Origin: Acidobacteriota bacterium | GTDB taxonomy: Bacteria > Actinomycetota > Acidimicrobiia > Acidimicrobiales > Microtrichaceae | Assembly (NCBI GenBank): GCA_003577145.1 | Contig: QEUP01000022.1 | Span: 1-64,000, forward strand | Length of the DNA stretch: 64,000 nucleotides | Direction of reading: 5' to 3' | In this document: positions 146 to 22,839 of the stretch, piece by piece | How the letters are laid out: each line of letters begins with the position of its first letter | Position numbering within the stretch: position 1 is the first letter of the stretch | The notes under the pieces: model-generated | The model's database searches: none | Told to the model about the DNA's origin: nothing | Seen by the model: only the letters and a program-made list of their open reading frames with translations | Made by a program: the position numbers and the translations under genes

Positions 146-1855
146 TTACTGCTCGATCCACACCCCTACGAGCTGTCCGATGGAGGCCACCATCTGGAGC
201 GGCCGGTCACCGTTGGGGAGCAGGGGCGGATCGATGAAACCGTGAACCTCGGGCTTCGAAGCCCAGCCTGTGACCGCGAAGCTCGTCCAGATGTTCCAGA
301 GCTGGTCGGCGAAGCGGCGGTTGATCTCCTCGTAGATGGCGGGACGGTCTGCGGGGTCGGCCGTGTGGCCCTCGTCGAGCAGACGGTTGATCTCGGGGTC
401 GTCGAAGCCGCCGAAGTTCACCGGCGAACCGCCGTACCACCAGAAGTAGTTGGTGTCGGGATCAGATCCGGGGTGGTTGTTCCACAGGAACGCATCGAAG
501 TCACCCGAGACCGCCTGGTTGATCGCCTCGGACTGCAAGACGCTGTGGGTTTCGATGCTCACGTTGTCGTAGGCGCTCATCTGGGTGACTACCTCATCGG
601 CGCGCTGTTCGTTGGTCGGCGCGGCCCCGAACGACAGCGTGAACTCCAGCCCGCCCATCTCGTCGATCAGCTCCTGGGCTCGCTCGGGGTCGTAGTCGGG
701 AAAACCCGAGTCCTCGAGGTGGCCCATCACCGCCGATCCGAACGGACCGTCGGCGGTGGTGCCGCGCCCCCCGCTGATGACCTCGTTGTACAGGTCACGG
801 TCCAAGCCCACCGCCAGTGCCTCACGGGCGCGGGGATCGTCAAAGGGTGGCCTCTCGGCGTTGAGCATGATGTAGTCGACGGTCTCCTGCTCATCGCCGG
901 CGACGAGGATGTTCACCTCCCCTCGTGCGGCCTTCTCCTCCAGTTCGGCGATCTCGATCGGGTCGCTGACCATGATCAGGTCCATGCCTCCCGAAGTTGC
1001 GGTGAGGTTGCCAACTCGCTTCGCCTCGTCGGGTTGGGCACGGAAGGTAATGGCGTCGAGGTGAGGTAGTCCCTCCTCGGCTCGCCAGTAGTTGTCGAAC
1101 TTCTCGACTCGGATCTCCCCGGTGAGGTCCCAGGGAGTGTCCACCGCTTTGAAGGGCCCGGTGCCTATTGGTGTCGTCGCGCAGGTCTCCCGGCTGGCTT
1201 GGATCTGCTCGGCGGCCATCATCATGAAGCGGCCCGCGCCCCAGTAGACGGGAAAGGCCGGCCATGGCCGGCTGGTGGTCACCTTCACGGTGAGGTCGTC
1301 GACCACCTCCACACCGGTGATCTCCTGGAACACGAACGAGCTGAGGGTCGGGATCAGCGGGTAGGACTCGACACCGCGGTACACGTCGATGTTCATCTTC
1401 ACCAACTCGGCGTCGAGCACCTCACCGTTGTGGAACTCGATGCCCTCACGCACCTTGATGGTCCACTCGTCGAAGGTCTCGTTGGGCTCGAAGGACTCGG
1501 CCAGGTAGGGCGTGGGTTCCAGCTTGTCGTTGAGGGCGATCAGGCCGTTGTAGACCGCGCTGGCCGCCACGATGCCCGAGGACGCGAACTGCGCCTCGGG
1601 AAGGCAGAAGCCTCCCTCGGTCAGGTTCGTCAGGCCGAAGACGATCTCACCGCCGTCCTGTGGCTCGAGGTCGGTCTCTTCACTACCGCTTCCGCTACCG
1701 TCACCGCCGTCACCGCCTGCACTGTCACCGCTGGAGCAGGCGGCCGTGAGCAACGCCGCAGCCAGCACAACCGCCAGCGCGCGCCGCGCCTGTCCCGGCC
1801 GGCAACGGCCGGCGACGCCGCGCGGTTTGCCGTATACCAGACCCGCCTCACCCAT
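146..1855 (-). CDS. ABC transporter solute-binding lipoprotein (peptide/nickel family 5)
   Basis: 569 aa. It is probably the extracytoplasmic receptor of an oligopeptide or nickel-type ABC importer (SBP family 5). The N-terminus is basic, then hydrophobic, then LLTAAC with the lipidated Cys at residue 40, followed by an acidic Gly/Ser/Asp linker. The mature part has the family features GGEIVFGLTN, YLAESFEPN, GTGPFKAVDTPW and a C-terminal region with PAIYEEINRRFAD, and the length is normal. I chose ATG 1853-1855 because it gives a complete signal peptide; the same frame stays open for 950 further codons upstream, but that translation is low-complexity and is an antisense shadow of the galactosidase and lyase genes. 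No permease or ATPase genes are next to it, so the partners are elsewhere or left of the window. Substrate unknown. Confidence 0.88.
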   Translation of the reverse strand: MGEAGLVYGKPRGVAGRCRPGQARRALAVVLAAALLTAACSSGDSAGGDGGDGSGSGSEETDLEPQDGGEIVFGLTNLTEGGFCLPEAQFASSGIVAASAVYNGLIALNDKLEPTPYLAESFEPNETFDEWTIKVREGIEFHNGEVLDAELVKMNIDVYRGVESYPLIPTLSSFVFQEITGVEVVDDLTVKVTTSRPWPAFPVYWGAGRFMMMAAEQIQASRETCATTPIGTGPFKAVDTPWDLTGEIRVEKFDNYWRAEEGLPHLDAITFRAQPDEAKRVGNLTATSGGMDLIMVSDPIEIAELEEKAARGEVNILVAGDEQETVDYIMLNAERPPFDDPRAREALAVGLDRDLYNEVISGGRGTTADGPFGSAVMGHLEDSGFPDYDPERAQELIDEMGGLEFTLSFGAAPTNEQRADEVVTQMSAYDNVSIETHSVLQSEAINQAVSGDFDAFLWNNHPGSDPDTNYFWWYGGSPVNFGGFDDPEINRLLDEGHTADPADRPAIYEEINRRFADQLWNIWTSFAVTGWASKPEVHGFIDPPLLPNGDRPLQMVASIGQLVGVWIEQ

Positions 1856-1943
1856 CACGCAGTCCCTCGTTGCCTCCCCCTTCGCTGCGCGTGAGTCTCG
1901 CCGATCGTGGCGTGGCCGCGCCAGCGGATCGAGCCTCGGGAGG

Positions 1944-1988
1944 GGGAGTCCGGTATCCGGGAGTCCGCTATCAGGGAGTCCGGTGTCC
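1944..1988. repeat. Three tandem 15-bp units
   Basis: Three imperfect direct repeats of GGGAGTCCGGTATCC lie at 1944-1958, 1959-1973 and 1974-1988, between the lipoprotein gene and the small membrane-protein gene upstream of it. A fourth, degenerate half unit follows. Role unknown; replication slippage is the simplest explanation. Confidence 0.6.
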
Positions 1989-1992
1989 GATA

Positions 1993-2124
1993 TCAGGCGG
2001 TTTCGGGGGTGCGGCTGAAGCACCGGCCGACGACCAGAGCGACCGTCAGCGCGAACGTGGCGACCAGCGCGATCACCAGTGAGATCGCTGTCCAAGTTGC
2101 CAAGAGGTTCGGGATGTCGCTCAT
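1993..2124 (-). CDS. Small single-pass membrane protein (43 aa)
   Basis: A short frame starts at ATG 2122-2124 and ends at TGA 1993-1995. A purine-rich AGGGGG lies 7 nt upstream of the ATG, a good ribosome binding site. The product starts MSDIPNLLATWTAISLVIAL, has one strongly hydrophobic segment (about residues 12-33) and a short C-terminal tail with Arg, Cys and Ser. The codon choice is GC-rich at third positions like the neighbours. It is divergent from the alpha-galactosidase gene. No function is recognised; it could be a small membrane regulator or an accessory subunit. Confidence 0.55.
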   Translation of the reverse strand: MSDIPNLLATWTAISLVIALVATFALTVALVVGRCFSRTPETA

Positions 2125-2163
2125 GTCGTTGCCCCCTGTTCATGGCATCAGAGGAGGCTGATC

Positions 2164-2179
2164 GCGGGAATGTTCCCGC
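2164..2179. promoter_or_regulatory. Perfect inverted repeat, candidate operator
   Basis: GCGGGAA-TG-TTCCCGC is a perfect 7-bp inverted repeat in the 79-bp gap between the divergent small membrane-protein gene and the alpha-galactosidase gene, 25 bp before the galactosidase start. Its position and symmetry suit a dimeric repressor controlling one or both genes. No regulator gene is adjacent. Confidence 0.4.
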
Positions 2180-2203
2180 CGGGGCCTCGAAGTTGTCCGT
2201 AGC

Positions 2204-3940
2204 ATGCAGGCCATGTTCATCCGCCTCGACAGCGGCGAGGTCATCGTGGCGACACCGACGGGCAGCGAGGCCGACCCGCGGGCGATCGAGCTCGACACCC
2301 GGGTGGCCGATACCGGCTTGGACTGGACGGTGCGCAACACCGGCCGGGAACCGGTCGCGGTGCGCGCGGTCGGCTGGCGGGTTCCGGTGGAAGCCACCGG
2401 ACCAGTGCGGATGTTCGCCAACGGCTACCAGTCGTGGTCGCCTACGGGACTGGTGGTCCTCGGTCGCGACGTCGACCCTTCGCTGTCCGACAACTCGATC
2501 GATATCGCTCGTGGTTGCTACCACGCCGATCAGGATGTAGTGGCTCCCGGTGAGCTTCGCAGCGAGCTTGTGACCGTGCTCGCCGACACGGCCGGAAGCG
2601 TGCTCGTCGGGTTCACCGGCGGCGATCGTCATGACGGGACCTTCCGCTTGAGCAAGACCGAAGATGGCGTACAACTCGTGTGCGAGGCCTTCCTCGGTGA
2701 TGCGGTGCTGGCGCCCGGCGAGGAGCGCCGCCTTCACGGCGTGGCCGTCAGGTCCGACGCGACACCCGCGGAGATGCTCGACCGGTGGGCTGCGGAGGTC
2801 GGTCAGCTCAACCGCGCCAGGGTCGCTGCCCCCTATCAGGTGGGATGGTGCTCCTGGTACCACTACTTCCACGAGGTCACCGAAGCTGACTTCCTCGGCA
2901 ACCTCGAACGGGCGGCGGACTGGCCCTTCGAGGTGTTCCAACTCGATGACGGCTTCCAGGCGGCCATCGGGGACTGGCTCAGCACCACGGCGTCGTTTCC
3001 CAACGGCCTCGAGGCACCGGCGGCCGCAGTGCGGGCGGCCGGACTGCGGCCCGGTATCTGGCTTGCACCTTTCCTCGTGGCACCGTCGTCGGAGATCGCC
3101 CGGTACCACCCGGAGTGGATCGCTCGCGATCCCGCCGGCGAGCAGCCCCTCATCGGCATGTACAACGACCACTGGGGTGGGTTCGTGCACGTTCTCGACA
3201 CGTCGAACCCGGCGGTGCTGGAGCACCTCGAACGCCTCGCCGCGGACCTGGTCGACGCCGGCTTCACCTACCTGAAGCTCGACTTCACCTACGCACCGAG
3301 CATCGACGGGACATATCTGGACCCGTCCAGGACGCCCGCCGAGAGAGTGCGGGCCGGCTACGACGCCATCCGGCGAGGCGCGGGTGAGGATACCTTCGTC
3401 CTGGGCTGCGGCTGCCCGCTCGGTCCGGCGATAGGCGTGGTGGACGGAATGCGGATCGGCCCCGACGTCGCTCCCAACTGGGCGCTGAGCCCCGATCAGT
3501 TGTACGTGCCGGGGTACGCCGAGGCGGCGCCCGCCACCCTGAACGCCTGGCGCAGCACCCTCGCCCGCAGCTTCATGCATCGCCGCTTGTGGCTGAACGA
3601 CCCGGACTGCATCATGTTGCGAACCGACCAGACCGAACTGGTCCCCGCGGCCGCCCGCGCGTGGGCCCACGCCGTGGCGGTGTCGGGTGGCATGGCTCTC
3701 GTGTCCGACGACTTGTCGTTGCTCGGGGACGCCGCCCGGCTGGTGCTCGAGGAGGTGGTCGAGACCGGTCGCCAAGTCGATGCTTCCGCCCGGACCGGCC
3801 CGGCGCCGGCGTGCCCCGATCTGCTCGATCGCCGCACGCCTGAGCGACTCCGGGGGGACGGCTACGAACTGGTCGGCGTCGTCGACTCGACCGTCAGCGG
3901 GACTGCTTCGGGCGCGACGCTTCGCCCGTACCAGCTGTGA
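2204..3940 (+). CDS. Alpha-galactosidase, glycoside hydrolase family 36
   Basis: 578 aa. Hydrolyses terminal alpha-galactosides (melibiose, raffinose type sugars); no signal peptide, so cytoplasmic. An N-terminal beta-sandwich (to about residue 200) is followed by a TIM barrel that opens with VGWCSWYHYF and FEVFQLDDGFQ. The nucleophile is Asp360 in YLKLDFTYAP and the acid/base is Asp421 in RIGPDVAPNW, both intact. A second in-frame ATG lies 9 bp downstream (MFIRLDSG), and neither has a strong ribosome binding site. There is no adjacent sugar transporter. The family call is firm; exact substrate is inference. Confidence 0.9.
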   Translation: MQAMFIRLDSGEVIVATPTGSEADPRAIELDTRVADTGLDWTVRNTGREPVAVRAVGWRVPVEATGPVRMFANGYQSWSPTGLVVLGRDVDPSLSDNSIDIARGCYHADQDVVAPGELRSELVTVLADTAGSVLVGFTGGDRHDGTFRLSKTEDGVQLVCEAFLGDAVLAPGEERRLHGVAVRSDATPAEMLDRWAAEVGQLNRARVAAPYQVGWCSWYHYFHEVTEADFLGNLERAADWPFEVFQLDDGFQAAIGDWLSTTASFPNGLEAPAAAVRAAGLRPGIWLAPFLVAPSSEIARYHPEWIARDPAGEQPLIGMYNDHWGGFVHVLDTSNPAVLEHLERLAADLVDAGFTYLKLDFTYAPSIDGTYLDPSRTPAERVRAGYDAIRRGAGEDTFVLGCGCPLGPAIGVVDGMRIGPDVAPNWALSPDQLYVPGYAEAAPATLNAWRSTLARSFMHRRLWLNDPDCIMLRTDQTELVPAAARAWAHAVAVSGGMALVSDDLSLLGDAARLVLEEVVETGRQVDASARTGPAPACPDLLDRRTPERLRGDGYELVGVVDSTVSGTASGATLRPYQL

Positions 3941-8968: not shown

Positions 8969-10783
8969 GTGAAGTCGCTCAACCCCAGACGAGTCGCAGT
9001 TGCAGCGCTGGTGATGCTGCTCGGCTTCGTGTTGCTGCTGTTGCTCGCCGACGAGGCCGGCGCGCAAGGAGCCGTTGAGGGCACCGGCTCGACGGAGGCG
9101 ACGATCGAGGAGCCACCCGAGGCTGCCGCCCCGGCTCCGGCGGCTGAGCCGCTCGAACCGGCCGAGGCGACGATCGAGGAGCCACCCGAGGCTGCCGCCC
9201 CGGCTCCGGCGGCTGAGCCGCTCGAACCGGCCGAGGGCGAAGCGTCTGATGACCTCCCGGCACTTTTCATCGACCTGCCGAGGATGGTTGACGACAGCGG
9301 CAGCTACCACCTCGAGGAGACGGTACGGGACCTGCACCAGGGCGACCAGCCCGAGAACATCCCCACCAAGGTGGCCGACGGCAGCGACGAACCCGACATC
9401 GGCTGTGGAGCAGGATGCCACCGGTCGCAGATCACTCAGAAGCTCCTCGACCGGTGGTGGACCGGAACCCAGTGGGCGGTCGTCATCGAGGCGACACTTG
9501 ATTCCAACCGGTTCTGCCACCTCCTGTGGTATCACTGCGTCGTCTCGCCCGCGCAGCCGCTGACCACCGACTTGGTGCTCTTCGACATCGAGTGCCTCAG
9601 CCCCCACTGGCTGGACTACGGCGACCGGTGCGTGAAGCGGGGCCACCTCGCGGGTCAGGACCAGAAGTTCAATTTCACCTTCCTGGTCGACCCGAGCGTC
9701 ATCAGCGGGAGCGTCTTCGAGACCGTCGAGTTCTGGCGTCCGATGTTCCCCTGCTGGTGCAAGCAGATCCTTGCCTCCGACACCATCGAAGTCGACTTCG
9801 ACGTCGAGTTGGAGATCGTCAAGGACTGCCCCGACACGGTCCAGGCAGGGACCGCCAGCTTCCAGTGCAACATCACGGTCTTCTATCCGGATCCCACTGG
9901 GCAGGCGACCCCGGACGGCCCGATCATCAGTCCCGGTCCGAGCCTCAGCGCCATAGCGGTGGAGGACTTCACCCCTGCGGCGTTCACGCCTGCCGGCCTG
10001 TCCTTCCTCTCCGGCAGCGGCACATGGAACTGCCCTGGCACCCACCTGTGCAGCGACGGCGAGCTTGATCCGGGCCAGGAGGCAGTGTTCCTCCTGACCA
10101 CCGGTGTGGATCCCGCGGCCGACGGTGTCGTGACGAACACGGCTGAGGTCCGCTGGAACGTCGGCAACCTGCCCTTCTCCGACAGCGACTCTGACGACAT
10201 CGACATCTACCGGCCCTCGGACACGAAGATCGCGATCAACAAGGACAGAGACGAACTCGTGGTGCTGCCGGGCCAGCCCATCTCGTGGCACGTGACCATC
10301 ACCAACACAGGGGGTGGCGCGGGAACAAACCTCGCGCTGAACGTTCGCGTCAGTGACTCGCCCCCGTCGTTCATCGAGGGCGCCGAGCTGACCTACGAGT
10401 CCGGCGTCGGCACGTGGAGTTGCTCCGGTCTGCTGTGCACGACTCCGGTGATGCCGGTCGGGACCACGGTCTTCAAGGTGTCGGGCACCGTCTCTGCCGG
10501 CACGTCCACTCCGAGCTTCGTCCACAACGAGGCCCAGGTCGAGTGGGACAACAACATCTTCGGCCCTGACTTCCCCGAGACCGCAGGGTCGACCACCGTG
10601 GTGCTGTCCAACTCGATCGAGCGCCAACCGGCAGCTCCGGAACCGGCTTCTTCCGCCGGCGAGACCGAGGGTCAGGCGCTGGCGGTCACCGGTAGCGGTC
10701 TCACCCTGCCGTTGTCGCTGCTCGGCCTGTTGTTCCTGGCGGTCGGGTTCGCCGTGCGGCGGGCGAGCATGCTGTTGCCCTGA
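8969..10783 (+). CDS. Secreted cell-wall anchored protein with LAVTG sorting signal
   Basis: 604 aa from GTG 8969, with GGAGGG placed 8-13 nt upstream. A signal peptide (about residues 1-32) is followed by a Pro/Ala/Glu stalk made of a perfect 23-residue tandem repeat, a Cys-rich region (CGAGCH, FPCWCKQ), and two beta-sandwich modules typical of DUF11-like surface repeats (SWHVTITNTGGGAGTN, VTNTAEVRWN). The C-terminus has LAVTG at about residue 571, a hydrophobic segment and RRAS. LAXTG is the class E sortase signal of high-GC Gram-positives, so the protein is probably covalently attached to peptidoglycan. No sortase gene is in the window. Ligand unknown. Confidence 0.8.
   Translation: MKSLNPRRVAVAALVMLLGFVLLLLLADEAGAQGAVEGTGSTEATIEEPPEAAAPAPAAEPLEPAEATIEEPPEAAAPAPAAEPLEPAEGEASDDLPALFIDLPRMVDDSGSYHLEETVRDLHQGDQPENIPTKVADGSDEPDIGCGAGCHRSQITQKLLDRWWTGTQWAVVIEATLDSNRFCHLLWYHCVVSPAQPLTTDLVLFDIECLSPHWLDYGDRCVKRGHLAGQDQKFNFTFLVDPSVISGSVFETVEFWRPMFPCWCKQILASDTIEVDFDVELEIVKDCPDTVQAGTASFQCNITVFYPDPTGQATPDGPIISPGPSLSAIAVEDFTPAAFTPAGLSFLSGSGTWNCPGTHLCSDGELDPGQEAVFLLTTGVDPAADGVVTNTAEVRWNVGNLPFSDSDSDDIDIYRPSDTKIAINKDRDELVVLPGQPISWHVTITNTGGGAGTNLALNVRVSDSPPSFIEGAELTYESGVGTWSCSGLLCTTPVMPVGTTVFKVSGTVSAGTSTPSFVHNEAQVEWDNNIFGPDFPETAGSTTVVLSNSIERQPAAPEPASSAGETEGQALAVTGSGLTLPLSLLGLLFLAVGFAVRRASMLLP
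9095..9232 (+). repeat. Perfect 69-bp tandem duplication inside the surface-protein gene
   Basis: The 69-bp units 9095-9163 and 9164-9232 are identical base for base and encode the 23-residue stalk unit that starts EATIEEPPEAAAPAPA. The lack of any difference between the copies suggests a recent expansion, and copy number may vary between strains. Confidence 0.9.
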
Positions 10784-10797
10784 GGAGCCTGCTGCTG

Positions 10798-13425
10798 TCA
10801 GCCCGCCGAGCGACCGCCGCCGAGCAGCCGCAGGTGGCGGTTCCATGACCCCTGGCCCTTGGTGGCGAGCCAGGCGTCGCAGGCATCGACCGGCAGCGGC
10901 GGGCTGACGAAGAACCCCTGAGCCCGATCGCAACCGAGGCCGCGGAGGCGACCGAGGGCATCGCCCTGCTCGACGCCTTCGGCAACCACTCGCAGGCCCA
11001 GGTTGTGAGCCAGGTCGATGATCGACCGCACGAGGGTCACGTCGCCCTGCTCCATCTCGGAGATGAACCCGCGGTCGATCTTGACCTCGTTGATCGGCAG
11101 GTTCTGGAGATAGGACAGCGAGGACTGGCCTGTGCCGAAGTCGTCGACGCTGATGTTGATCCCCCGGCGCTGGAGCTGCCCCAGCACCTGCATGGCCACC
11201 AGAGGGTCGTCCATGACCTCGCTCTCGGTGAGCTCGAGGCACAGCTTCTGCGCCGGCAGTTCGGTGGCCGACAGCATCACGGCGATCCACTCGTCGAGTT
11301 CCGGCGAGTAGAGGCTCCGTACCGACAGGTTGACCGCGACGCTCAGGTCGTGGCCCTCCTTGCGCCAACGGACAACATCGCGCGCCGCCTGCTCGAGGAC
11401 GATCTGGGTCAGCGGCTGGATCATGCCCGAGACCTCCGCCAGCTCGATGAACTCGACGGGGAGCATGAGCCCGTGATCGGGATGGTTCCAGCGGACGAGC
11501 GCCTCGACACCCACCACCTCGCCGCTGGCAAGCTCGATGATCGGCTGGTAGTGGACCTCGAACTGGTCCTGGTGTATGGCGCGTCTCAACTCACCCAACA
11601 GGGTCAGGCGCCAGACGCTCGAGCGGTCGTGCTCGGGCGCGTACACCGCGAAGCCTGCGGCGGACCGCTTGGCGGCGTACATGGCGATGTCGGCCTTCTG
11701 CACCAGGGTCTCGGCGTCGGTGGCGTGCTCGGGGAAGAAGGCGATGCCGACGCTGGCGCCGGTCTGGAGCGAGATCCCGTCGACCAGGACCGGCTCCTCC
11801 AGGGCGCGCGTGATCCGCTGTGCCACCGTGATCGCCCCTGACAGGGACGCGTTGGTGGTCAGAAGGATCGCGAACTCGTCCCCACCGAGACGGACGATCG
11901 TGTCGGCTTCGCGCAGCACCTCGGTGAGACGGTTGCTCAGCTCGACCAGCAGCCGGTCGCCGTGATGGTGGCCCAGAGCGTCGTTGACCTCCTTGAACTG
12001 GTCGAGGTCCATCACCAGCAGAGCGACGGGGGTTGCCGTCCTCTCCGCCGTGCGCAGAGCCGTCCCGAGCCGGTCGTTCAGGAGGGTCCGGTTCGGCAGC
12101 CCGGTCAGCGGGTCGTGCAGCGCCTGGTGACGCAGAGCCCTCGCCGTCATCGCCCGATCAGTGACATCGTCGAGCGAGACTCCCGCCGCCTGCCCCGGCA
12201 AGGGGAACGCCCGCAGGCTCAGGACAACGGGGTGTTCGCCGCCTTCGACGGTGAAGTCCTCGAGCCCGGCAGGTTCACCGGTGCGGATGACGCGGGCTAT
12301 GCGTTCGGGGATCTCACTGCCGACGAGCCTGGGGAAGGCGTCGGTGGCCAGTTGGCCTATCACGTCGGGGATGCTCCGATTCGTGAGCCGTCCAGCCTCG
12401 GGATTCGCGGCAATGATCCGCAGGCTCGTCTCGTCGTCGGGATCCTCCAGTTGGACGAGGAGCAGAGCGACCCCGATGTGCTCGACGATGTCGGCATACT
12501 GCCGGACTCGTTCCTCGGCCCGTTTGCGGTCCGAGACGTCGACGATCACACCACGGCGACTCGTCACCTCACCGGTCAGGTTGGTCATGACCTTCACGAC
12601 CTCGTGCACCCACACGATGTCGCCACCGGCTGTCGTGATCCGGTATTCGGCCTCGTCGTTGCCACCGGCCGAGATCGCCTTCCGCCGATCGTCGATGACC
12701 GCGGCATCATCGGGGTGGATGACCGACTCCCAATGACCGGCGCTGCGCCACGCGGCGCAAGGGTATCCGAGGAGCTCCACCACCTTCTCGTCGATGTAGT
12801 CGGGTGGGCCCTCCGAACCGGGCGCCTCCCAGACGACTGCGTCGACGCCGGAGACGAGGTCGCGGTAGCGAAGCCTCAGGCCCAGCTCACCCTCGGCCAT
12901 CTCGCCCAGGACGGTGGCACCGATCGTGGCAGTGATGGAATAGACCACCACCGACACCACCCAACCGGTCGGCTGGTGGACGAATCCCAAGGTCACCAGG
13001 CCCACTACGGCGACGCCGATGGCGCTGAAGCCCACCCGACGCCCGAACCCCAGCACGATCTGGGTGAGGATGGCGAGAAGGATCATGACCGCCGCGGTGT
13101 AGAGGGCCGGTGCGATGGCCGCAACCGCCAGGATCGCCGCATAGTCGCCGTAGGCAGTTATGGGCGGGAGTCTCCCGCTGCGCCGCACCACCACATCGCA
13201 GACCACGTTGTAAGGGATGCCCACCACCACCACGACCGCGGCCAACCAGACACGACGCTCGCCGAAGACCGGGAACACCAGCGGCGCCAGCGCCAGGCAG
13301 ACGATCGCGAGGTACCGGTAGGCGATCACGAGGCGCCAGAAGGACCGGCGCGCTGCCAGGGCGTCGCCTGGCAGCCCGGCCGTTTCCGGCGGCAGCGGCA
13401 TTTCTGACTTGCTTCGCGGTGTCAT
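10798..13425 (-). CDS. Membrane-bound PAS-GGDEF-EAL cyclic-di-GMP enzyme
   Basis: 875 aa. Five or six membrane segments occupy about residues 28-180, then two PAS-like sensor domains (about 190-305 and 310-430, the first ending in RRGVIVDVSDRKRAEE), a GGDEF domain and an EAL domain. The GGDEF motif is intact in RLGGDEFAIL, and the EAL domain keeps EALVRWNHP, LELTESEVM, DDFGTGQSS and KIDRGFI. Both synthesis and hydrolysis of c-di-GMP are therefore possible. Convergent with the surface-protein gene, with only 14 bp between stops. The input signal is unknown. Confidence 0.92.
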   Translation of the reverse strand: MTPRSKSEMPLPPETAGLPGDALAARRSFWRLVIAYRYLAIVCLALAPLVFPVFGERRVWLAAVVVVVGIPYNVVCDVVVRRSGRLPPITAYGDYAAILAVAAIAPALYTAAVMILLAILTQIVLGFGRRVGFSAIGVAVVGLVTLGFVHQPTGWVVSVVVYSITATIGATVLGEMAEGELGLRLRYRDLVSGVDAVVWEAPGSEGPPDYIDEKVVELLGYPCAAWRSAGHWESVIHPDDAAVIDDRRKAISAGGNDEAEYRITTAGGDIVWVHEVVKVMTNLTGEVTSRRGVIVDVSDRKRAEERVRQYADIVEHIGVALLLVQLEDPDDETSLRIIAANPEAGRLTNRSIPDVIGQLATDAFPRLVGSEIPERIARVIRTGEPAGLEDFTVEGGEHPVVLSLRAFPLPGQAAGVSLDDVTDRAMTARALRHQALHDPLTGLPNRTLLNDRLGTALRTAERTATPVALLVMDLDQFKEVNDALGHHHGDRLLVELSNRLTEVLREADTIVRLGGDEFAILLTTNASLSGAITVAQRITRALEEPVLVDGISLQTGASVGIAFFPEHATDAETLVQKADIAMYAAKRSAAGFAVYAPEHDRSSVWRLTLLGELRRAIHQDQFEVHYQPIIELASGEVVGVEALVRWNHPDHGLMLPVEFIELAEVSGMIQPLTQIVLEQAARDVVRWRKEGHDLSVAVNLSVRSLYSPELDEWIAVMLSATELPAQKLCLELTESEVMDDPLVAMQVLGQLQRRGINISVDDFGTGQSSLSYLQNLPINEVKIDRGFISEMEQGDVTLVRSIIDLAHNLGLRVVAEGVEQGDALGRLRGLGCDRAQGFFVSPPLPVDACDAWLATKGQGSWNRHLRLLGGGRSAG

Positions 13426-13597
13426 CTGCTTGGGTGATCTCCGTCGCGTCCCGCCACCTGAGCTACGCGGAGTGCTCAGGTGAGCACCGCTTGTAACACT
13501 GTAGGCCGACTGATCCGTGTTGTCTCCCCAAACGGCGACTACGTAATGTCAGCCGCGACCGTTCGCCGAGATGGGCGACGAACACGAGAGGACCGCC

Positions 13598-14113
13598 GTG
13601 ACCACCCACGATCGACCTTTTGGCCGCTATCTGGAGGATTTCGCGGTCGGTGACGTCTACCGGCACTGGCCCGGCAAGACGATCACCGAGTACGACGATC
13701 ACTTGTTCTGCATGATCACCATGAACCACCACCCGCTGCACACCAACGCCTGGTTCGCCGAGCACGAGACGGTTCACGGCAAGAACGTGGTGGTGGGCAA
13801 CCTCGTGTACTCGGTCGTGCTCGGGATGAGCGTTCCCGACGTCAGCGGTGCGGCCATCGCCAACCTCGAGGTCGAGGTCCTCACCCACAAGAAGCCGACC
13901 TTCCACGGCGACACCATCTATGCCGAGACCAGGGTGCTGGACGTGCGCGAATCCAAGTCCCGCGACGACCGGGGCGTTGTCACCGTGGAGACCAAGGGAT
14001 TCAACCAGCACGGGGACGAGGTCTGCTACTTCCGGCGCAAGGTCATGGTGTGGAAGCGCGACCACGCGCCGGCGCGCCAGCGACCCTACGGTGACGACAT
14101 CTGGGATGAGTAG
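13598..14113 (+). CDS. mch: MaoC-family hydratase, probable mesaconyl-CoA hydratase
   Basis: 171 aa from GTG 13598, preferred because GAGAGGA lies 6 nt upstream; an in-frame ATG at 13571 would add nine residues. Single hot-dog MaoC domain with HWPGKTITEYDDHLFCMITMNHH and ASP/HIS-type catalytic region, then GKNVVVGNLVYSVVLGMSVPDVSG. This block is what I recall for the small MaoC protein encoded in the ethylmalonyl-CoA gene cluster of Streptomyces, where it hydrates mesaconyl-CoA to methylmalyl-CoA. With mcl and mcd homologues nearby, that role is the best reading. The c. 145-bp upstream gap probably holds its promoter; no box is clear. Confidence 0.8.
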   Translation: MTTHDRPFGRYLEDFAVGDVYRHWPGKTITEYDDHLFCMITMNHHPLHTNAWFAEHETVHGKNVVVGNLVYSVVLGMSVPDVSGAAIANLEVEVLTHKKPTFHGDTIYAETRVLDVRESKSRDDRGVVTVETKGFNQHGDEVCYFRRKVMVWKRDHAPARQRPYGDDIWDE

Positions 14114-14276: not shown

Positions 14277-14795
14277 TCAGGCGCTCAGAGCCGCGACGAT
14301 GTCGTCCAGCGCTCCGTCAGCGAGAGCGCGCATCTCCTCGTCGGTACGATCCTGGATCGGGTGGGTGACATAGACGGCGGCGAGAGTGATGCCGAGGGCC
14401 TTCATCTGGGCGGCAGCAGCGTCGGCGAACTCGCTGGACGCGACGAACACGCCGGGCAGCCCGCGGCGTTCGAGATCAGCGATGTCGTGCACACTGCACG
14501 ACGTGCAGCTTCCTCAATCCGCCAGTGCCTCGATGATCACGTCGCATTGCTGGCTTATCTCATGACGGAGATCGATCGGCGCCGGCTTGGTGAAGGTGGG
14601 CTTCGTGTAGCGCCTCGTCTCGATCCCCCGCTCGTCCAGACGCTGCCCGATGTGGTCGAGGAAGACGTCACCCCTGGCCTTGCTTATGTCGAGCAGGCCG
14701 ACGGTGAGGCTCTCCAGCGTTGCCGGACGCTCGGTGAGCGCGCGCTGGGCGGCGTGACGCTCCCCGGTCGGATCCAGGACTGTGGTCGGGCTCAT
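14277..14795 (-). CDS. UGSC-family selenoprotein with in-frame UGA (Sec94)
   Basis: 172 residues if the single in-frame TGA (14514-14516) is read as selenocysteine. The sequence around it is ALAD-U-GSCTSCSVHD, matching the UGSC motif that names this (seleno)protein family, in which U or Thr/Cys precedes Gly-Ser-Cys. Both sides are in one frame, with no other stop or frameshift, and the frame continues coherently (LERRGLPGVFVASSEF) to TGA 14277-14279. A strong hairpin lies 11 nt after the UGA (separate entry). The start ATG overlaps the stop of the thioredoxin-fold gene as ATGA, indicating translational coupling. The family is thought to be redox active; reaction unknown. The alternative is a nonsense-disrupted pseudogene, less likely given the motif and hairpin. 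Confidence 0.85.
14484..14502 (-). ncRNA. Candidate bacterial SECIS hairpin
   Basis: On the minus strand, 11 nt after the UGA, lies GTCGTGCA-GTG-TGCACGAC, a perfect 8-bp stem with a 3-nt loop whose first base is G. The loop begins 20 nt after the UGA. Bacterial SECIS elements are expected to place a small loop with a G in its first two positions about 16-37 nt after the UGA, so position, loop size and loop base all fit. A competing 6-bp stem CTGCAC-GTC-GTGCAG overlaps it. SelB and tRNA-Sec genes must lie outside the window. Confidence 0.7.
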
Positions 14796-16231
14796 GGCTT
14801 CACCTCCAGGGTTACGGGCTGGCTTCCGGCGTCACCGCTGACCCACCCGCCGATGATTGCAGAGAACAGGCCGGCGCTGCCTCCGACGTGGACGAGCTGC
14901 AGACCACCTGGCCGGAACTTCGGGAGCTGCAGGCCGGCGAACACCGGGGGAACGCCCTCGGCCATACCCGCGGTTCCCCGCTCGATCTCATCGGGGTCGA
15001 GCAGCAGGAGGGCGTCGAGCTCCTGCCGCAGCCGAGCCTTGCTCCACCCGGCCTCGCCGAAGACACGACCGTGTTCGGGCGTCACCGCGAGCAGCGCGTC
15101 GAAAGCGAGGGGGAGCTTGGGGTGCGCGACGGAGCGGAGGCACGATGCATAGGTTCGGGCGAGGGACTCGGGCTCGCGGGAGAGCTGGTCGACCACGCCG
15201 CGGACACCCTCGCCGGCGAACAGCGTCACGGTGGAGGCTTCAGGCGGGAACCCGCGTTCCACGGCCAGCGACTCCCATGGAGATCCGTCCTCGTCCTCGG
15301 CGAAGCAGAAGGTGTACTTGCCCGGGTTGCCCAACGTCGCCCGGTCGATGCCTCCCGGCACGCCGCCCCCTACGTTGCGTACCACGAGTTGAAGTGCCCG
15401 GCCGATCGTGGCGTTGGCGCGGTTGCCCTGGCCGAAGGCGTTGGTCCCCGAGTTCATCCCGATCGCCCGTGACAGCGGCCCGTTGACGATCACCACCGGA
15501 CCGCTGAAGTAGGTGGTGGCCAGCAGGCCGTGCATGTTGAACTCGTCGGTGCAGGCTGCTTCGACCGCCGCGATCACCATCGGCAGGTACTCGGGGCGGC
15601 AGCCTGCCATGACCGCGTTGATCGCCACCTTCTCGACCGTGCAGTCGACGAGGTCAGGGGGTACGACTGCGACCACGTCTCCAGGGTCTCGCGTCGTGCC
15701 TTCGAGCATCCGGAGCACGCGGCCCTCGGTGGGTGGAACCACGGGTAGGCCATCGGTCCACCCCCGGTCGAAGAGCGCCTCGAGCTCGTCCTCCAGCTCG
15801 CCGATCGCCACCCTGCGCGATCGCAACCCGCCCGCCTCGAAGCGGGCACGCAACTCGTCGACCCGGGCGGGATCAACGCTCAGGGATCCACAGCCCGGCC
15901 GGTATTCGGGCAGGCCCGCACCGAGGTCGTCGATCCCGGTGAAGTCCTCCCATCGCGCGCGGTCCCATCCGACCGTGCGATCCACCTCTTCGCCCGCGTC
16001 GACCCGGATGAGCGTGGGCACCGTCTCGATGCCGTGGTGGTAGGAGACCTCCAGTGACGTGTCGTCAACGACGGCATGCACAGAACCGGGGAACGACGGG
16101 TCGTCCTGGCTGTACACCGTGAGCGCCACGGTACCGGAGTCGAGCTGGCCCAGGACCGGCGCGACCAGGACACAGGTGGGGCAGTCGTGCTTGACCACCG
16201 CGACGATCCCGTCGGGCAGAACCGGTCTCAT
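14792..16231 (-). CDS. Thioredoxin-fold protein with large C-terminal domain, UGSC partner
   Basis: 479 aa. The N-terminal about 110 residues look like a thioredoxin fold, with a CPTC redox motif at Cys17/Cys20 and a cis-Pro-like TVPTLIRV. The rest (about residues 140-479) is a larger domain with conserved-looking WTDGLPVVPPTEGRV, MAGCRPEYLPMVIAAVEA, SGPVVIVNGP and GGGVPGG that I do not recognise by function. It overlaps the start of the UGSC gene (ATGA) and its own start overlaps the stop of the upstream hydrolase gene (ATGA), so the three genes are one coupled operon. The likely role is a thiol/selenol redox partner or an enzyme whose cysteine chemistry is served by the selenoprotein; this is inference. 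Confidence 0.72.
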   Translation of the reverse strand: MRPVLPDGIVAVVKHDCPTCVLVAPVLGQLDSGTVALTVYSQDDPSFPGSVHAVVDDTSLEVSYHHGIETVPTLIRVDAGEEVDRTVGWDRARWEDFTGIDDLGAGLPEYRPGCGSLSVDPARVDELRARFEAGGLRSRRVAIGELEDELEALFDRGWTDGLPVVPPTEGRVLRMLEGTTRDPGDVVAVVPPDLVDCTVEKVAINAVMAGCRPEYLPMVIAAVEAACTDEFNMHGLLATTYFSGPVVIVNGPLSRAIGMNSGTNAFGQGNRANATIGRALQLVVRNVGGGVPGGIDRATLGNPGKYTFCFAEDEDGSPWESLAVERGFPPEASTVTLFAGEGVRGVVDQLSREPESLARTYASCLRSVAHPKLPLAFDALLAVTPEHGRVFGEAGWSKARLRQELDALLLLDPDEIERGTAGMAEGVPPVFAGLQLPKFRPGGLQLVHVGGSAGLFSAIIGGWVSGDAGSQPVTLEVKP

Positions 16232-17124
16232 GGCGTGAGGAAGTCGACCATCAAGCGGTTCACCTCGTCGGGACGTTCGAGGTGCAAGAAGTGGCCGACA
16301 TCCTCGAGGATCTCGTAACGCGATCCTTCGCTGTCGAGGTACCCGGCACCGATCCGGGCGAACTCGACGCTGATGCAACCGTCCTCAGCGCCGTGCAGGT
16401 ACAGGGTCGGTTGGGGCGGTACCTGAAGAGTCGCTGCTTGAGCGGCGGACAGGGTCGGGTCCTGGCGAGAGACCTGCAGGCTGTCTCGGTAGTAGGCGAT
16501 GGCGGCGGCCATGTTGGCCGGCTCGGCGAGAGCGGCGCGGACGTGGGCGACGTCCTCGGCGCAGCCGTAACCGGGTGACCAGTCCTGCCACAAGCGGACC
16601 ATGAACTCGCAGTCGTTCAGCGGGACGACCATCTCGGCCAGGTCGGCGAGGAAGAAGAACATGTACCAGGATCGGCGCAGCTGGTCGAAGGACATGAACG
16701 CCTGAGCCATGCTCGCACCCGGGGGGACAGCGGCGGCGACAACGCGGCGCCACCGCTCGGGCTGAAGGCAGGCGGCACCGTAGGCGGCCAAGGCACCCCA
16801 GTCGTGGCCGACGAGTACGGCGTCGGCGTCACCGGCGAGGGCCTGGTGGAGCTCGCATGCGTCCAGCGCCAGCACGCCGCTCTGGTAGCGGTTGTCGGCG
16901 GGCACCGCGGTCGGCGCGTAGCCCCGGGTGAACGGCGCCACCGCCCGGTAGCCGGCCCTGGCGAGCTCGGGCAGCAGGTGCCGCCAGGTCCAAGCGGTGT
17001 CGGGAAAACCGTGCAGGCACAGGGCCAGGGGACCCTCGCCGACCGCGAGGTAGGCGAACTCCAGGCCATTTGCCGATACGGAGCCCCGCTCGAAATCCAC
17101 AGCAGGCAGATCCACAGCAGGCAA
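16228..17124 (-). CDS. Alpha/beta hydrolase with Asp nucleophile (epoxide hydrolase/haloalkane dehalogenase type)
   Basis: Up to 298 aa. HGFPDTAWTW forms the oxyanion-hole region, GHDWGA holds the Asp nucleophile (Asp108), and GHFLHLERPDE holds the catalytic His. An Asp rather than Ser nucleophile places it with epoxide hydrolases, haloalkane dehalogenases and fluoroacetate dehalogenases. Start is uncertain: TTG 17124 is the longest, with in-frame GTG codons 9 and 24 bp downstream, and none has a clear ribosome binding site; the first 15 bp are tandemly duplicated. It is the first gene of the coupled hydrolase-thioredoxin-UGSC operon, so its substrate may feed that redox pair. Confidence 0.8.
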   Translation of the reverse strand: MPAVDLPAVDFERGSVSANGLEFAYLAVGEGPLALCLHGFPDTAWTWRHLLPELARAGYRAVAPFTRGYAPTAVPADNRYQSGVLALDACELHQALAGDADAVLVGHDWGALAAYGAACLQPERWRRVVAAAVPPGASMAQAFMSFDQLRRSWYMFFFLADLAEMVVPLNDCEFMVRLWQDWSPGYGCAEDVAHVRAALAEPANMAAAIAYYRDSLQVSRQDPTLSAAQAATLQVPPQPTLYLHGAEDGCISVEFARIGAGYLDSEGSRYEILEDVGHFLHLERPDEVNRLMVDFLTP

Positions 17125-18200: not shown

Positions 18201-18242
18201 CCTCAGCCTGCTCCTCTACAACGGGCGAAGGAGTTGAAGCCC

Positions 18243-18743
18243 TTGGGCGTGTCGCCGATCGAGTTCGACTCGAACATGTACCGTGAGGTCCTGGGTCACT
18301 TCCCGACCGGTGTAACGGTGATATCGGCGCTCGACCAGGAGTCACCGGTCGGCTTGGCGGTCGGATCCTTCTTCTCGGTGTCGCTGGACCCGCCGCTGGT
18401 CGGCTTCTGTGCAGACAAGGGCTCCACCACGTTCCCCAAGATCCGCCGCGCGGGCCGCTTCTGCGTCAACATCCTGGCTGAGGACCAGCACGAGACCAGC
18501 AACCGGTTCGCCGGCAAAGGCGAGGACAAGTACCAGGGCATCGAATGGGAGCCGAGTCACGTAACCGGGTCGCCGATGATCAAAGGCTCACTGGCTCACA
18601 TCGACTGCGAGTTGGAGAACGTGCACGAGGCCGGGGATCACTTCATCGCCCTCGGCAGGGTCAAAGCGCTCGAGGCAGTGCGCTCGGATACCGGTCCACT
18701 CCTCTTCTTCAAGGGCAGATATGGATCCCACTCCGATATGTGA
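18243..18743 (+). CDS. Flavin reductase-like FMN-binding protein
   Basis: About 166 aa. FMN-binding split-barrel fold of the NAD(P)H:flavin oxidoreductase/styrene monooxygenase small-subunit type: FPTGVTVISAL, VGSFFSVSLDPPLVGFC, FCVNILAEDQ and HIDCELENVHEAGDHFIALGRV. These enzymes supply reduced flavin to two-component monooxygenases. AAGGAG at 18228-18233 directly abuts the furthest upstream TTG (18234) and so favours TTG 18243 (9-nt spacing); GTG 18249 is the other option. No monooxygenase component is adjacent. Confidence 0.85.
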   Translation: MGVSPIEFDSNMYREVLGHFPTGVTVISALDQESPVGLAVGSFFSVSLDPPLVGFCADKGSTTFPKIRRAGRFCVNILAEDQHETSNRFAGKGEDKYQGIEWEPSHVTGSPMIKGSLAHIDCELENVHEAGDHFIALGRVKALEAVRSDTGPLLFFKGRYGSHSDM

Positions 18744-18875: not shown

Positions 18876-18897
18876 CTCGGCAGTGTAGGTGGCAGCG

Positions 18898-19419
18898 ATG
18901 ACCGTCTATGCCCTCGGTGACCAAGAGCCCGACATCCACCCCTCCGCCTATGTCCACCCCGACGCGGTCGTGATCGGCAACGTCGTGATAGGAGCGGAGA
19001 GCTCGGTGTGGCCGGGAGCGGTCCTGCGGGGCGACGACGGGTTCATCTACGTCGGCGACCAGACATCGATCCAGGACGGCGTGGTGGTTCACACGACCAG
19101 AGCGCAGCCGACCCGGATCGGCTCGAGGTGCACGATCGGCCACAACGCCCACCTCGAAGGGTGCACCGTCCACGACAAGGCACTGGTCGGCTCGGGCTCG
19201 GTCGTCCTGCACCGTTCCGTGATCGGTGAGGAGGCGCTGGTCGGCGCCAATGCCTTGGTGGGAAACGACAAGGTGGTTCCGCCGAGGGCCAGGGCGCTCG
19301 GTATCCCGGCCAAGATCACCGAGGATGTCGTCGAACCGGGCCAGTTCGACGAGGGCGTGGACTTCTACGTCGCCCGCGGTGCCCGCTACCGACGCGAGCT
19401 TCGGCCTCTGCATCGCTGA
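18898..19419 (+). CDS. Gamma-class carbonic anhydrase family protein
   Basis: 173 aa from ATG 18898 (an in-frame GTG lies 9 bp upstream). Left-handed beta-helix hexapeptide protein: repeated V/I-G-x-x units with HPSAYVHPDAVVIG, GAVLRGDDGFIYVGDQTSIQDG, and metal-type histidines in VVVHTTRA and TIGHNAHLEGCTV. The C-terminal helix is short. Gamma carbonic anhydrase homologues bind Zn or Fe, and many family members have no proven hydratase activity, so the activity is inferred from ligands only. Confidence 0.88.
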   Translation: MTVYALGDQEPDIHPSAYVHPDAVVIGNVVIGAESSVWPGAVLRGDDGFIYVGDQTSIQDGVVVHTTRAQPTRIGSRCTIGHNAHLEGCTVHDKALVGSGSVVLHRSVIGEEALVGANALVGNDKVVPPRARALGIPAKITEDVVEPGQFDEGVDFYVARGARYRRELRPLHR

Positions 19420-19989: not shown

Positions 19990-22839
19990 TCAGATCGTGA
20001 ACGGGCGGTCGAGTGCGTGCTCGACCTCCGCGGGGGGAAGTGGCCTGCTGAAGAGGAACCCCTGGGCCGACCTACAGCCGAGCTCTCGGAGCAGCTCCAA
20101 CTGCTGGATCGTCTCGACTCCCTCGGCGATCGTCTCCAGTTCCAGGGTCTCGGCAAGGCTGATGACGGCGGCGACGATGGCGGAGTCCTCGGCGTCGGGA
20201 CCCAGCCCGTCGACGAATGTCCGGTCGATCTTGAGGATGTCCACCGGGAACCGACGCAGGAAGGCCAGCGAGGAGTAGCCGGTCCCGAAGTCGTCTATGG
20301 CCAGGCTCAGGCCCAGCTCCTTCAGGCGTCGCAGGGTGGAGACTGCGCGGGCGGCGTCGTCCATGAGGTCGGTCTCGCTCATCTCGAGGCACAGGAAGCG
20401 GGGCGGGAGCCCGACCCTGCGGAGCACGTCTTCCACCTCGTGGTGCAAGTCGTCGGAGGCGAGCTGACGCTTGGAGAGGTTGACATGGATGACCGGCGCC
20501 CCCGGCCCGTGCCGGCGGACCCATTCCTGTCCCTGGGCGCATGCCTGGTTGAGCACGAGGAGGCCCAGGGGCACGATCAGGCCGGTCTCCTCGGCGAGGG
20601 TCATGAACTCGCTCGGTGGGAGCAGGCCCCGGTCGGGATGATCCCAGCGGGCCAAGGCCTCGACGGCGATCACCGTACCGGTGTCCATGTCGATGGTGGG
20701 CTGGTAGTTGGCGACGATCCGCCCGTCCTCGATCGCCTTGGACAACTCGTCGGCCATCGTGACCCGAGCCTGGGCTTGGGCCCGGAGCTGCTCGTCATAC
20801 ACCTCCAGGCGGGCGCGGCCCAGCTCCTTGGCCCGGTACATGGCGGCGTCGGCGTCGCGCAGGAGAGCCTCGGGATGGCGCGCGTCCCCCGTCGAGAGGG
20901 CAACGCCTCCACTCACTGTCACGTCGAGCTCAGCTCCGCCTATCCGGAACGGTGATCGTTCGATGGACGAGCACACCCGGTTGGCGATCGCGATGGCGTG
21001 CTGCTCGCTCTCGACGTAGGGGCAGAGCACCACGAACTCATCGCCTCCGAGCCGCGCGACCGTGTCGCTGGGGCGGACGGTCTGGGTGATCCGGTGAGCG
21101 GATTCGACCAGCAGCCGATCTCCCGCGTCATGCCCCAAGTTGTCGTTCACCGTCTTCAAGCGGTCGAGATCCAGGAACACGAGCGCCACGATCGAGTTGT
21201 CGCGGGCCGAACGTGCCAGCGCCAGCTCCATGTGGTCGAGGAGCAGCGCCCGGTTGGGCAAACCGGTGAGTGAGTCGTGCGTCGCCTGATGGGCCAGCTC
21301 GGCTTCGAGCCGGCGCTGCTCGCTCATGTCCCGTCCCACCGCCGAGATCGTGAGGAGGGTGCCGTCGCCGTCGAGCTCGCCCACCACCGAATGATGCACC
21401 GGGAAGGGTTCGCCTCCATGAGCGTGGAGCATCATCAGCTCGCCTTCCCACACCTCTCCACGCTGCAGTGTGCCGATCAGGTCTTCGGCGTGCCGGGCCA
21501 CCGCTGCCGGGTCATACAGGTCGAAGACGTTCACCTCGATGGTGCCTCGCTTCGCGTAGCCGAGGCGCTCGCGGGCGGCCCGGTTGGCGTACTCGACGAC
21601 ACCTGTTTGGGCGTCGACGATGCCCACCATGTCGCTGGTGGACTCGACAATTCGAGCCAGGCGGTCTCTGATGTCGAATGCCTGGCGCTGCCCCGAGATG
21701 TCCATGACATGCGAAGCGATCGCATAGGGCGTCCCATCGGGCTTGCGGATCAGCTTGGTGCTGGCGTCGACCCACACCGTCTCACCGCTCTTGTGCATCA
21801 GCCGTCTCTCGTCACGGACGACGCCGATCTCGCCCCCCTCCAGACGCTCGAACCCCTCGACTGCCGGGGCCATGTCATCGGGGTGGATGAGACCAGTCGG
21901 ATACGTGCCGGCCAACTCGTCGACCTCGTAGCCCAGCATGCGGGCATACACCTCGTTGACGTGAACGATCCTCCCCTCCAGGTTCACGACGATCTGACCT
22001 ATCGGCGACCCCTCGCCCAGATGGTGCAGCAGGTCTACTTCGTCCGGTGCCTCATCGGCGGTGGCTGGAACGGAGAGCGCTGCCTCCACGAACTCGGTGA
22101 CGTCGGCGAGCGACGCCACCCAACCGAGCAGCTGCGCCTCCTCGTCGAGCACTGGCGCGACGCGAAGATCCACCCATCGGATGGCACCGGTGGGCCGCTG
22201 GACGCGTCCCTGGAAGGAGAGCTCCGCGGGAGGATCGGACGACTCGCGGATGGTCGTTGCCAGACGCGTGCGGTCGTCGTGATGGACGACATCGAGGAGG
22301 TGTCGGCCTGGGTGGTCGTAGTGGCTACGGGTGACCTCGACCCAGCGGTCGTTGGCGAAGGTGATGGTCCCGCCGGGATCGAGAGCGGCGATACCCACCG
22401 GTGCCGCACCCGCCAGCACCTCGAAGTCACCGTCGGGGCCACCTGGTCGGATCAGGGGCATGTCCACGTCGGACACGTTGGTGATCTGCATGTGGTACCC
22501 GCTCACCTCTCCATGGTCCTCACGCAGAGCCGTCATCGACGTGTGACCCCAGACGTCGGCGGCGCCGGCACGCCGGTAGCGGAGCGCGCTGAGGAAGCTC
22601 TGGAGCTCTCCGCTGCGAAGCAGACGGATCCCGATCTCGTGGAAGTAGCTGCTACCGGGGTGGAGGAGACGGGTGGCGGGCCGGCCGACTAGCTCCTCGG
22701 CGGGGTATCCCAGCAGCTCGGTGAGGGCCCGGTTCGCTCGCGTGATGCGGTTGTCGAGTCCGAGCAACATCTGCGGCAGGGGCGCGTCGTCGAACGCGGG
22801 ATCCCGGGCTGTCGGTTCGCCCTCGGGATCGTCGCTCAT
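19990..22839 (-). CDS. Multi-PAS GGDEF-EAL cyclic-di-GMP enzyme (soluble)
   Basis: 949 aa from ATG 22837-22839, which has GAGAGGTGA 5-13 nt upstream. No membrane segment. Four PAS-like domains (about 20-130, 140-255, 270-390, 395-515) are followed by GGDEF (about 520-680) and EAL (about 690-945). Active motifs are kept: ARLGGDEFVVL, EALARWDHP, LEMSETDLMDD, DDFGTGYSS, KIDRTFV. It is the second full-length c-di-GMP protein within 10 kb but differs from the first in lacking membrane segments and having more PAS domains. Multiple PAS domains suggest integration of several redox or ligand signals. Confidence 0.93.
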   Translation of the reverse strand: MSDDPEGEPTARDPAFDDAPLPQMLLGLDNRITRANRALTELLGYPAEELVGRPATRLLHPGSSYFHEIGIRLLRSGELQSFLSALRYRRAGAADVWGHTSMTALREDHGEVSGYHMQITNVSDVDMPLIRPGGPDGDFEVLAGAAPVGIAALDPGGTITFANDRWVEVTRSHYDHPGRHLLDVVHHDDRTRLATTIRESSDPPAELSFQGRVQRPTGAIRWVDLRVAPVLDEEAQLLGWVASLADVTEFVEAALSVPATADEAPDEVDLLHHLGEGSPIGQIVVNLEGRIVHVNEVYARMLGYEVDELAGTYPTGLIHPDDMAPAVEGFERLEGGEIGVVRDERRLMHKSGETVWVDASTKLIRKPDGTPYAIASHVMDISGQRQAFDIRDRLARIVESTSDMVGIVDAQTGVVEYANRAARERLGYAKRGTIEVNVFDLYDPAAVARHAEDLIGTLQRGEVWEGELMMLHAHGGEPFPVHHSVVGELDGDGTLLTISAVGRDMSEQRRLEAELAHQATHDSLTGLPNRALLLDHMELALARSARDNSIVALVFLDLDRLKTVNDNLGHDAGDRLLVESAHRITQTVRPSDTVARLGGDEFVVLCPYVESEQHAIAIANRVCSSIERSPFRIGGAELDVTVSGGVALSTGDARHPEALLRDADAAMYRAKELGRARLEVYDEQLRAQAQARVTMADELSKAIEDGRIVANYQPTIDMDTGTVIAVEALARWDHPDRGLLPPSEFMTLAEETGLIVPLGLLVLNQACAQGQEWVRRHGPGAPVIHVNLSKRQLASDDLHHEVEDVLRRVGLPPRFLCLEMSETDLMDDAARAVSTLRRLKELGLSLAIDDFGTGYSSLAFLRRFPVDILKIDRTFVDGLGPDAEDSAIVAAVISLAETLELETIAEGVETIQQLELLRELGCRSAQGFLFSRPLPPAEVEHALDRPFTI

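Follow-up and report, generated by a model that had tools for sequence, protein, structure and literature searches.

A predicted selenoprotein of the UGSC family and its near-obligate partner in an actinobacterial genome: a candidate two-subunit selenoenzyme

The locus lies in a window of 64,000 nucleotides, by which we mean the whole stretch of DNA that was analysed. A likely operon on the minus strand runs from an alpha/beta hydrolase gene through a gene that we call the partner to a gene of the UGSC family, with both junctions formed as ATGA overlaps. The partner, directly upstream of the UGSC gene, was first listed as an over-long open reading frame from 16378; it probably starts at the ATG of position 16231, overlapping the hydrolase stop, and at the other end its stop overlaps the start of the UGSC gene. 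These genes, and others nearby on the opposite strand, are listed below.

14277..14795, minus strand: predicted UGSC selenoprotein gene, 172 aa plus stop, with Sec94; assigned from family models and predicted fold
14792..16231, minus strand: near-obligate partner gene, 479 aa; thioredoxin-like domain at about residues 1-100, Cys/Sec linker, C-domain at about residues 135-479
16228..17124, minus strand: alpha/beta hydrolase gene, first of the likely operon; adjoins the pair in 13 of 80 relatives
13571-14113, plus strand: MaoC-type hydratase gene
18234-18743, plus strand: flavin reductase gene
18889-19419, plus strand: gene for a gamma-carbonic-anhydrase-like hexapeptide protein

The best named models for the hydrolase were haloalkane dehalogenases, at 58.9 bits and thus far below the cut-off of 265, and the MaoC-type hydratase resembles the RipB/Ich enoyl-CoA hydratase (136.8 bits; cut-off 340). 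Among the 80 relatives, a flavin reductase was found near the UGSC gene in 49 and a gamma-carbonic-anhydrase-like protein in 39, always on the opposite strand, while acyl-CoA dehydrogenase was nearby in 38 and the MaoC-type hydratase in 33. Because these four are on other strands or at distances that vary, they were kept out of the mechanism proposed below. Long signalling proteins of the PAS-GGDEF-EAL type flank the region (10798-13425, minus strand, from Pfam; 19990-22839, minus strand, by eye), and a DUF11 surface-like protein, encoded at 8969-10783 on the plus strand, contains a repeated EATIEEPPEAAAPAPAAEPLEPA segment and has a hydrophobic anchor at its C-terminus. Rfam gave no match at the locus, and a promoter and terminator scan there did not rise above chance level.

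Read on the minus strand from 14795 to 14277, the UGSC gene is a single frame of 173 codons, MSPTTV...EALAD-U-GSCTSCSVHD...LSA-stop, in which the sole internal TGA is codon 94, at the U of UGSC, exactly as an earlier sequence-only reading of this DNA had described. Ordinary ORF calling recovers only the 93-aa front half. Three features within the frame are central to what follows.

14514..14516, minus strand: TGA, the predicted selenocysteine codon, U94 of U-G-S-C; in the model, where strand 3 ends and the next helix starts
14505..14507, minus strand: codon for Cys97, last residue of the UGSC motif, conserved to 99% in the diverse family and a candidate resolving thiol
14484..14502, minus strand: bacterial SECIS-like hairpin, GTCGTGCA-GTG-TGCACGAC, 8 bp, with covariation and frozen codons

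The frame can be treated as one gene because curated models match its product across the TGA: NF041046 with an E value of 1e-45 (155.1 bits; cut-off 125) and PF24696 with 2e-45 (155.3 bits; cut-off 25). Scores above both cut-offs, the U/C-G-S-C motif and the alternation of Sec with Cys all place it in the UGSC family, which, as had been noted from the sequence, was described before, and which bears those names; a 2026 review still counts it among the uncharacterised. Alignment to homologues, which the earlier reading had proposed, placed TGA at the codon 94 position in all 80 nearest relatives, with frames intact on both sides, and Cys in its place in the homologues L105 and L124. Across 81 diverse members, Sec/Cys94, Gly95, Cys97 and Asp104 are near-invariant.

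The hairpin also has the geometry first reported for it, an 8-bp stem starting 11 nt past the TGA, and its GTG loop starts 19 nt after the TGA. The loop is kept in 81 of 81 UGSC sequences, and seven of the eight stem pairs form in every one of them (pair 2 forms in 79%). One pair alternates between G-C, A-T and G-U with zero mismatches, having changed at least seven times on a protein tree built without the hairpin codons. Codons 98, 100, 101, 102 and 104 show zero synonymous variation, whereas other conserved columns use many codons. Judged by these comparisons the hairpin is not a product of chance, and it is a putative SECIS that would direct Sec insertion by SelB at UGA94.

The sequence-only reading had made its case depend on selB and a tRNA-Sec gene in the same genome, and it had proposed a search for these together with selA and selD; all four were found. 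The genome encodes selB (272.8 bits; cut-off 242) adjoining selA (393.6 bits) on contig C26, the same contig that carries a tRNA-Sec with anticodon TCA. The selD gene (L099, G000:C10:79776-80696) contains a single TGA in frame, which makes SelD another predicted selenoprotein. The distribution of selA follows that of the TGA forms: it was present in 45 of 46 genomes with TGA forms of the UGSC gene, as against two of eight with only non-TGA forms (Fisher, 7e-6) and one of 20 order-mates with no match to UGSC or partner (2e-14).

These results bear on whether the TGA is a real stop, which would leave two separate short proteins, a pseudogene or a sequencing error. The ordinary ORF caller does end there, but the TGA is common to all 80 relatives with frames open on either side, Cys replaces it in genomes that mostly lack selA, and the downstream hairpin covaries. 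We therefore rejected this explanation as extremely improbable; a sequencing error in particular, which the sequence-only reading had named as a possible refutation, is contradicted by conservation of the codon in 80 relatives together with SECIS-like covariation. By every comparative test available this is a genuine selenoprotein gene, and UGA94 is almost certainly decoded as selenocysteine.

The partner adjoins the UGSC gene in 80 of 80 relatives, and the pairing was also seen in the members examined of a phylum sample. When 148 genomes of the class were searched with the partner, 51 genomes were returned, and a search of those 51 with UGSC found 106 copies. A partner was on the same strand with a gap of at most 254 nt, in both gene orders, for 103 of these copies; among the others, no fewer than two are partial matches or sit at contig ends. 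Up to eight UGSC/partner pairs were found in one genome. Over 55 pairs, mirror-tree distances of the two proteins correlate with r = 0.94, against a null maximum of 0.23. In one homologue (L119; G136:C25, about 1486-3192) the UGSC domain and the partner C-domain form a single fused frame in which the Sec site is replaced (GDMGTSS). Genes for sugar-type ABC transport, an aldehyde dehydrogenase and an FAD oxidoreductase lie beside the fusion. UGSC and the partner very probably form one functional unit. The near-obligate partner is the main new point of the present analysis, although we make no claim of priority: a fusion of UGSC to a domain called "Unknown_1" was noted in 2008 (PMC2398784), and that domain may be the partner family of the window. 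The sequence-only reading had been right about the family and the selenocysteine but had missed the partner, the Sec/Cys site in it and the relation to GrdB and PrdB described below.

The partner of the window contains further features of interest.

16172..16183, minus strand: CPTC redox motif of the thioredoxin-like domain, seen in sequence and model
15890..15892, minus strand: codon for Cys114 (TGT) in PG-C-GS; TGA in eight relatives
15857..15877, minus strand: hairpin at the position of the partner SECIS in Sec-form relatives; eight of eight pairs form here, beside the TGT codon

Residues 1-100 have a thioredoxin fold with a CxxC motif by both sequence and model, and the likeness to thioredoxin is confined to this domain, which is fused to a C-domain outside any known family and is absent in many paralogues. 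That C-domain, of about 340 residues, had no match in Pfam, NCBIfam (June 2026) or PDB sequences. The linker codon is TGA in eight relatives (L065, L070, L075, L081, L083, L091, L097 and L098; FKPG-U-GSLT), where the frame is open on both sides and a hairpin forms seven or eight of its eight pairs with the loop about 20 nt downstream, so both subunits are predicted to be selenoproteins in some species. Haft and colleagues reportedly described selenoprotein neighbourhoods in 2023 and 2025, including the SAO and Tso operons (cited in PMC13188914). Those operons are alike in having several Sec proteins each, as do the eight relatives with TGA in both UGSC and partner. In the window the hairpin beside the TGT codon is possibly a relic SECIS or a coding palindrome; Cys-form partners in general retain partial pairing because the sequence coding for VDPxRVD is palindromic. 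Many distant paralogous partners, and in one genus the main-clade partner, lack the thioredoxin domain and consist of the C-domain only, and the common core of the system is UGSC plus the partner C-domain.

Within the partner, Cys309, Cys211, Asp160 and Arg278 are strongly conserved, and the top Foldseek matches of its model include class I fumarases (E 1.6e-3). Together with an MmgE/PrpD gene in one operon of a distant pair, these observations would suit a metal-dependent enzyme or a lyase without redox chemistry. Sec94 and Cys97 would then hold a metal or Fe-S cluster, and the partner would serve as a catalytic subunit of dehydratase-like type. The similarity to fumarase is weak, however (TM-score 0.24, rmsd 15), and did not recur among the VIA-align matches listed, which were filled by the thioredoxin domain; Cys211 is missing from some subfamilies, and the CPTC domain of the main clade points to redox. 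We consider such an enzyme quite unlikely.

The UGSC product was modelled with high confidence (pLDDT 93): the prediction is a Rossmann-like sheet of five parallel strands, with the Sec where the third strand ends. Among the matches listed by Foldseek and VIA for this model were generic flavodoxin-like proteins, with no function named. A thioredoxin-like fold was suggested for UGSC in a 2008 Global Ocean Sampling study (PMC2398784); the predicted model and the listed matches are flavodoxin-like instead. What has been known as an orphan family, presumed thioredoxin-like, is thus here predicted to have a flavodoxin-like or Rossmann-like fold and a near-obligate partner.

Profile comparison pointed to a relation with selenoproteins of amino acid reductases. 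In hhalign, UGSC aligned to the Sec region of GrdB and of small PrdB-like proteins at 94% (E 1e-7), Sec on Sec, while block-shuffled templates gave at most 18% and reversed ones 0.7%. UGSC is probably a distant homologue of the GrdB/PrdB Sec domain. Both systems have a second subunit and a UxxC motif that follows a hydrophobic strand, and in both, as proposed here for UGSC, thiols would recycle the selenium chemistry. They differ in that UGSC has no match at the Pfam level to GrdB (PF07355), a poor test of the shared part as that model ends at the Sec site, and in that the UGSC partner is not GrdE (PF09338): against the GrdE profile the partner reached a probability of 0.1%. PDB sequences gave no match to GrdB or PrdB. 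The partner as a GrdE, a relative of UGSC or a relative of GrdB was rejected, as profile comparison gave no signal for any of these, and since it is unrelated to GrdE, the pyruvoyl chemistry known for glycine and proline reductase does not transfer to this system. We also observed that small PrdB-like PF07355 proteins (L137-L144) are common in Actinobacteria, most of them with a TGA shortly beyond the point where the Pfam model stops; the sequences behind that model had evidently been cut off at Sec.

The contexts of distant pairs are catabolic, including CoA transferase family III (three pairs), acyl-CoA dehydrogenase, acyl-CoA ligases, MmgE/PrpD, uptake systems of the TRAP and ABC types, amidase and aldehyde dehydrogenase, and for this reason organic acids or CoA esters are proposed as substrates. 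Operon neighbours differ between paralogues, so the substrate may vary from pair to pair. The two proteins could also work as a peroxidase or thiol-disulfide oxidoreductase dependent on Sec, with UxxC cycling between selenol and selenenyl sulfide, electrons coming from the partner's thioredoxin domain and the C-domain acting as a redox client or regulator. The UxxC motif and the fused thioredoxin domain are consistent with such a role, and a thioredoxin-like redox function was assumed in PMC2398784. It is nevertheless unlikely, given that UGSC is predicted to be flavodoxin-like, that many pairs have no thioredoxin domain, that several paralogues belong to catabolic operons alongside genes for transporters and CoA enzymes, and that up to eight pairs in a genome fit substrate diversification better than housekeeping redox.

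The explanation we find best, while holding it at somewhat less than an even chance, is a two-subunit, selenolate-based reductase or lyase, recycled by thioredoxin and acting on organic acids or CoA esters. SelB would insert Sec at UGA94 of the UGSC subunit, guided by the downstream hairpin; the decoding as Sec is shown by comparison. This subunit would be a flavodoxin-like domain carrying Sec on the loop where strand 3 ends, a distant relative of the GrdB/PrdB Sec domain according to the profile evidence. Near-obligate pairing, the one fusion and co-evolution suggest that the partner C-domain may bind substrate or shape the active site. The selenolate would attack the substrate and cleave a carbon-heteroatom bond, and Cys97 could resolve the oxidised Sec as a selenenyl sulfide. 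In the clade of the window, the CPTC thioredoxin domain of the partner would then re-reduce Sec via Cys/Sec114. The substrates may be organic acids or CoA esters, as the neighbours of paralogous pairs suggest. It counts against this explanation that many paralogous partners, and in one genus the main-clade partner, have no thioredoxin domain. We put forward only tentatively the specific chemistry, a thioredoxin-recycled reductive or eliminative cleavage of bonds in carboxylates or CoA esters.

A further point against this explanation is that the hosts are probably aerobic actinobacteria, whereas Grd and Prd work in anaerobes. A broader proposal, which we regard as rather doubtful in its entirety, is a large and diversified family of two-subunit selenoenzymes with a GrdB/PrdB-like Sec subunit and an unnamed partner, sometimes both containing Sec, that carry out thioredoxin-driven reductive cleavage of organic acids or CoA esters. 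If true, selenium chemistry so far known from anaerobes would occur in presumably aerobic actinobacteria that are common in fresh water, the sea and soil. With the partner, the predicted fold and the link to GrdB and PrdB, a family of unknown function becomes a concrete two-protein complex amenable to expression and assay. Given that genomes of the window's order with no match to the pair almost always lack selA, the UGSC/partner system may be a main reason these bacteria keep selenocysteine.
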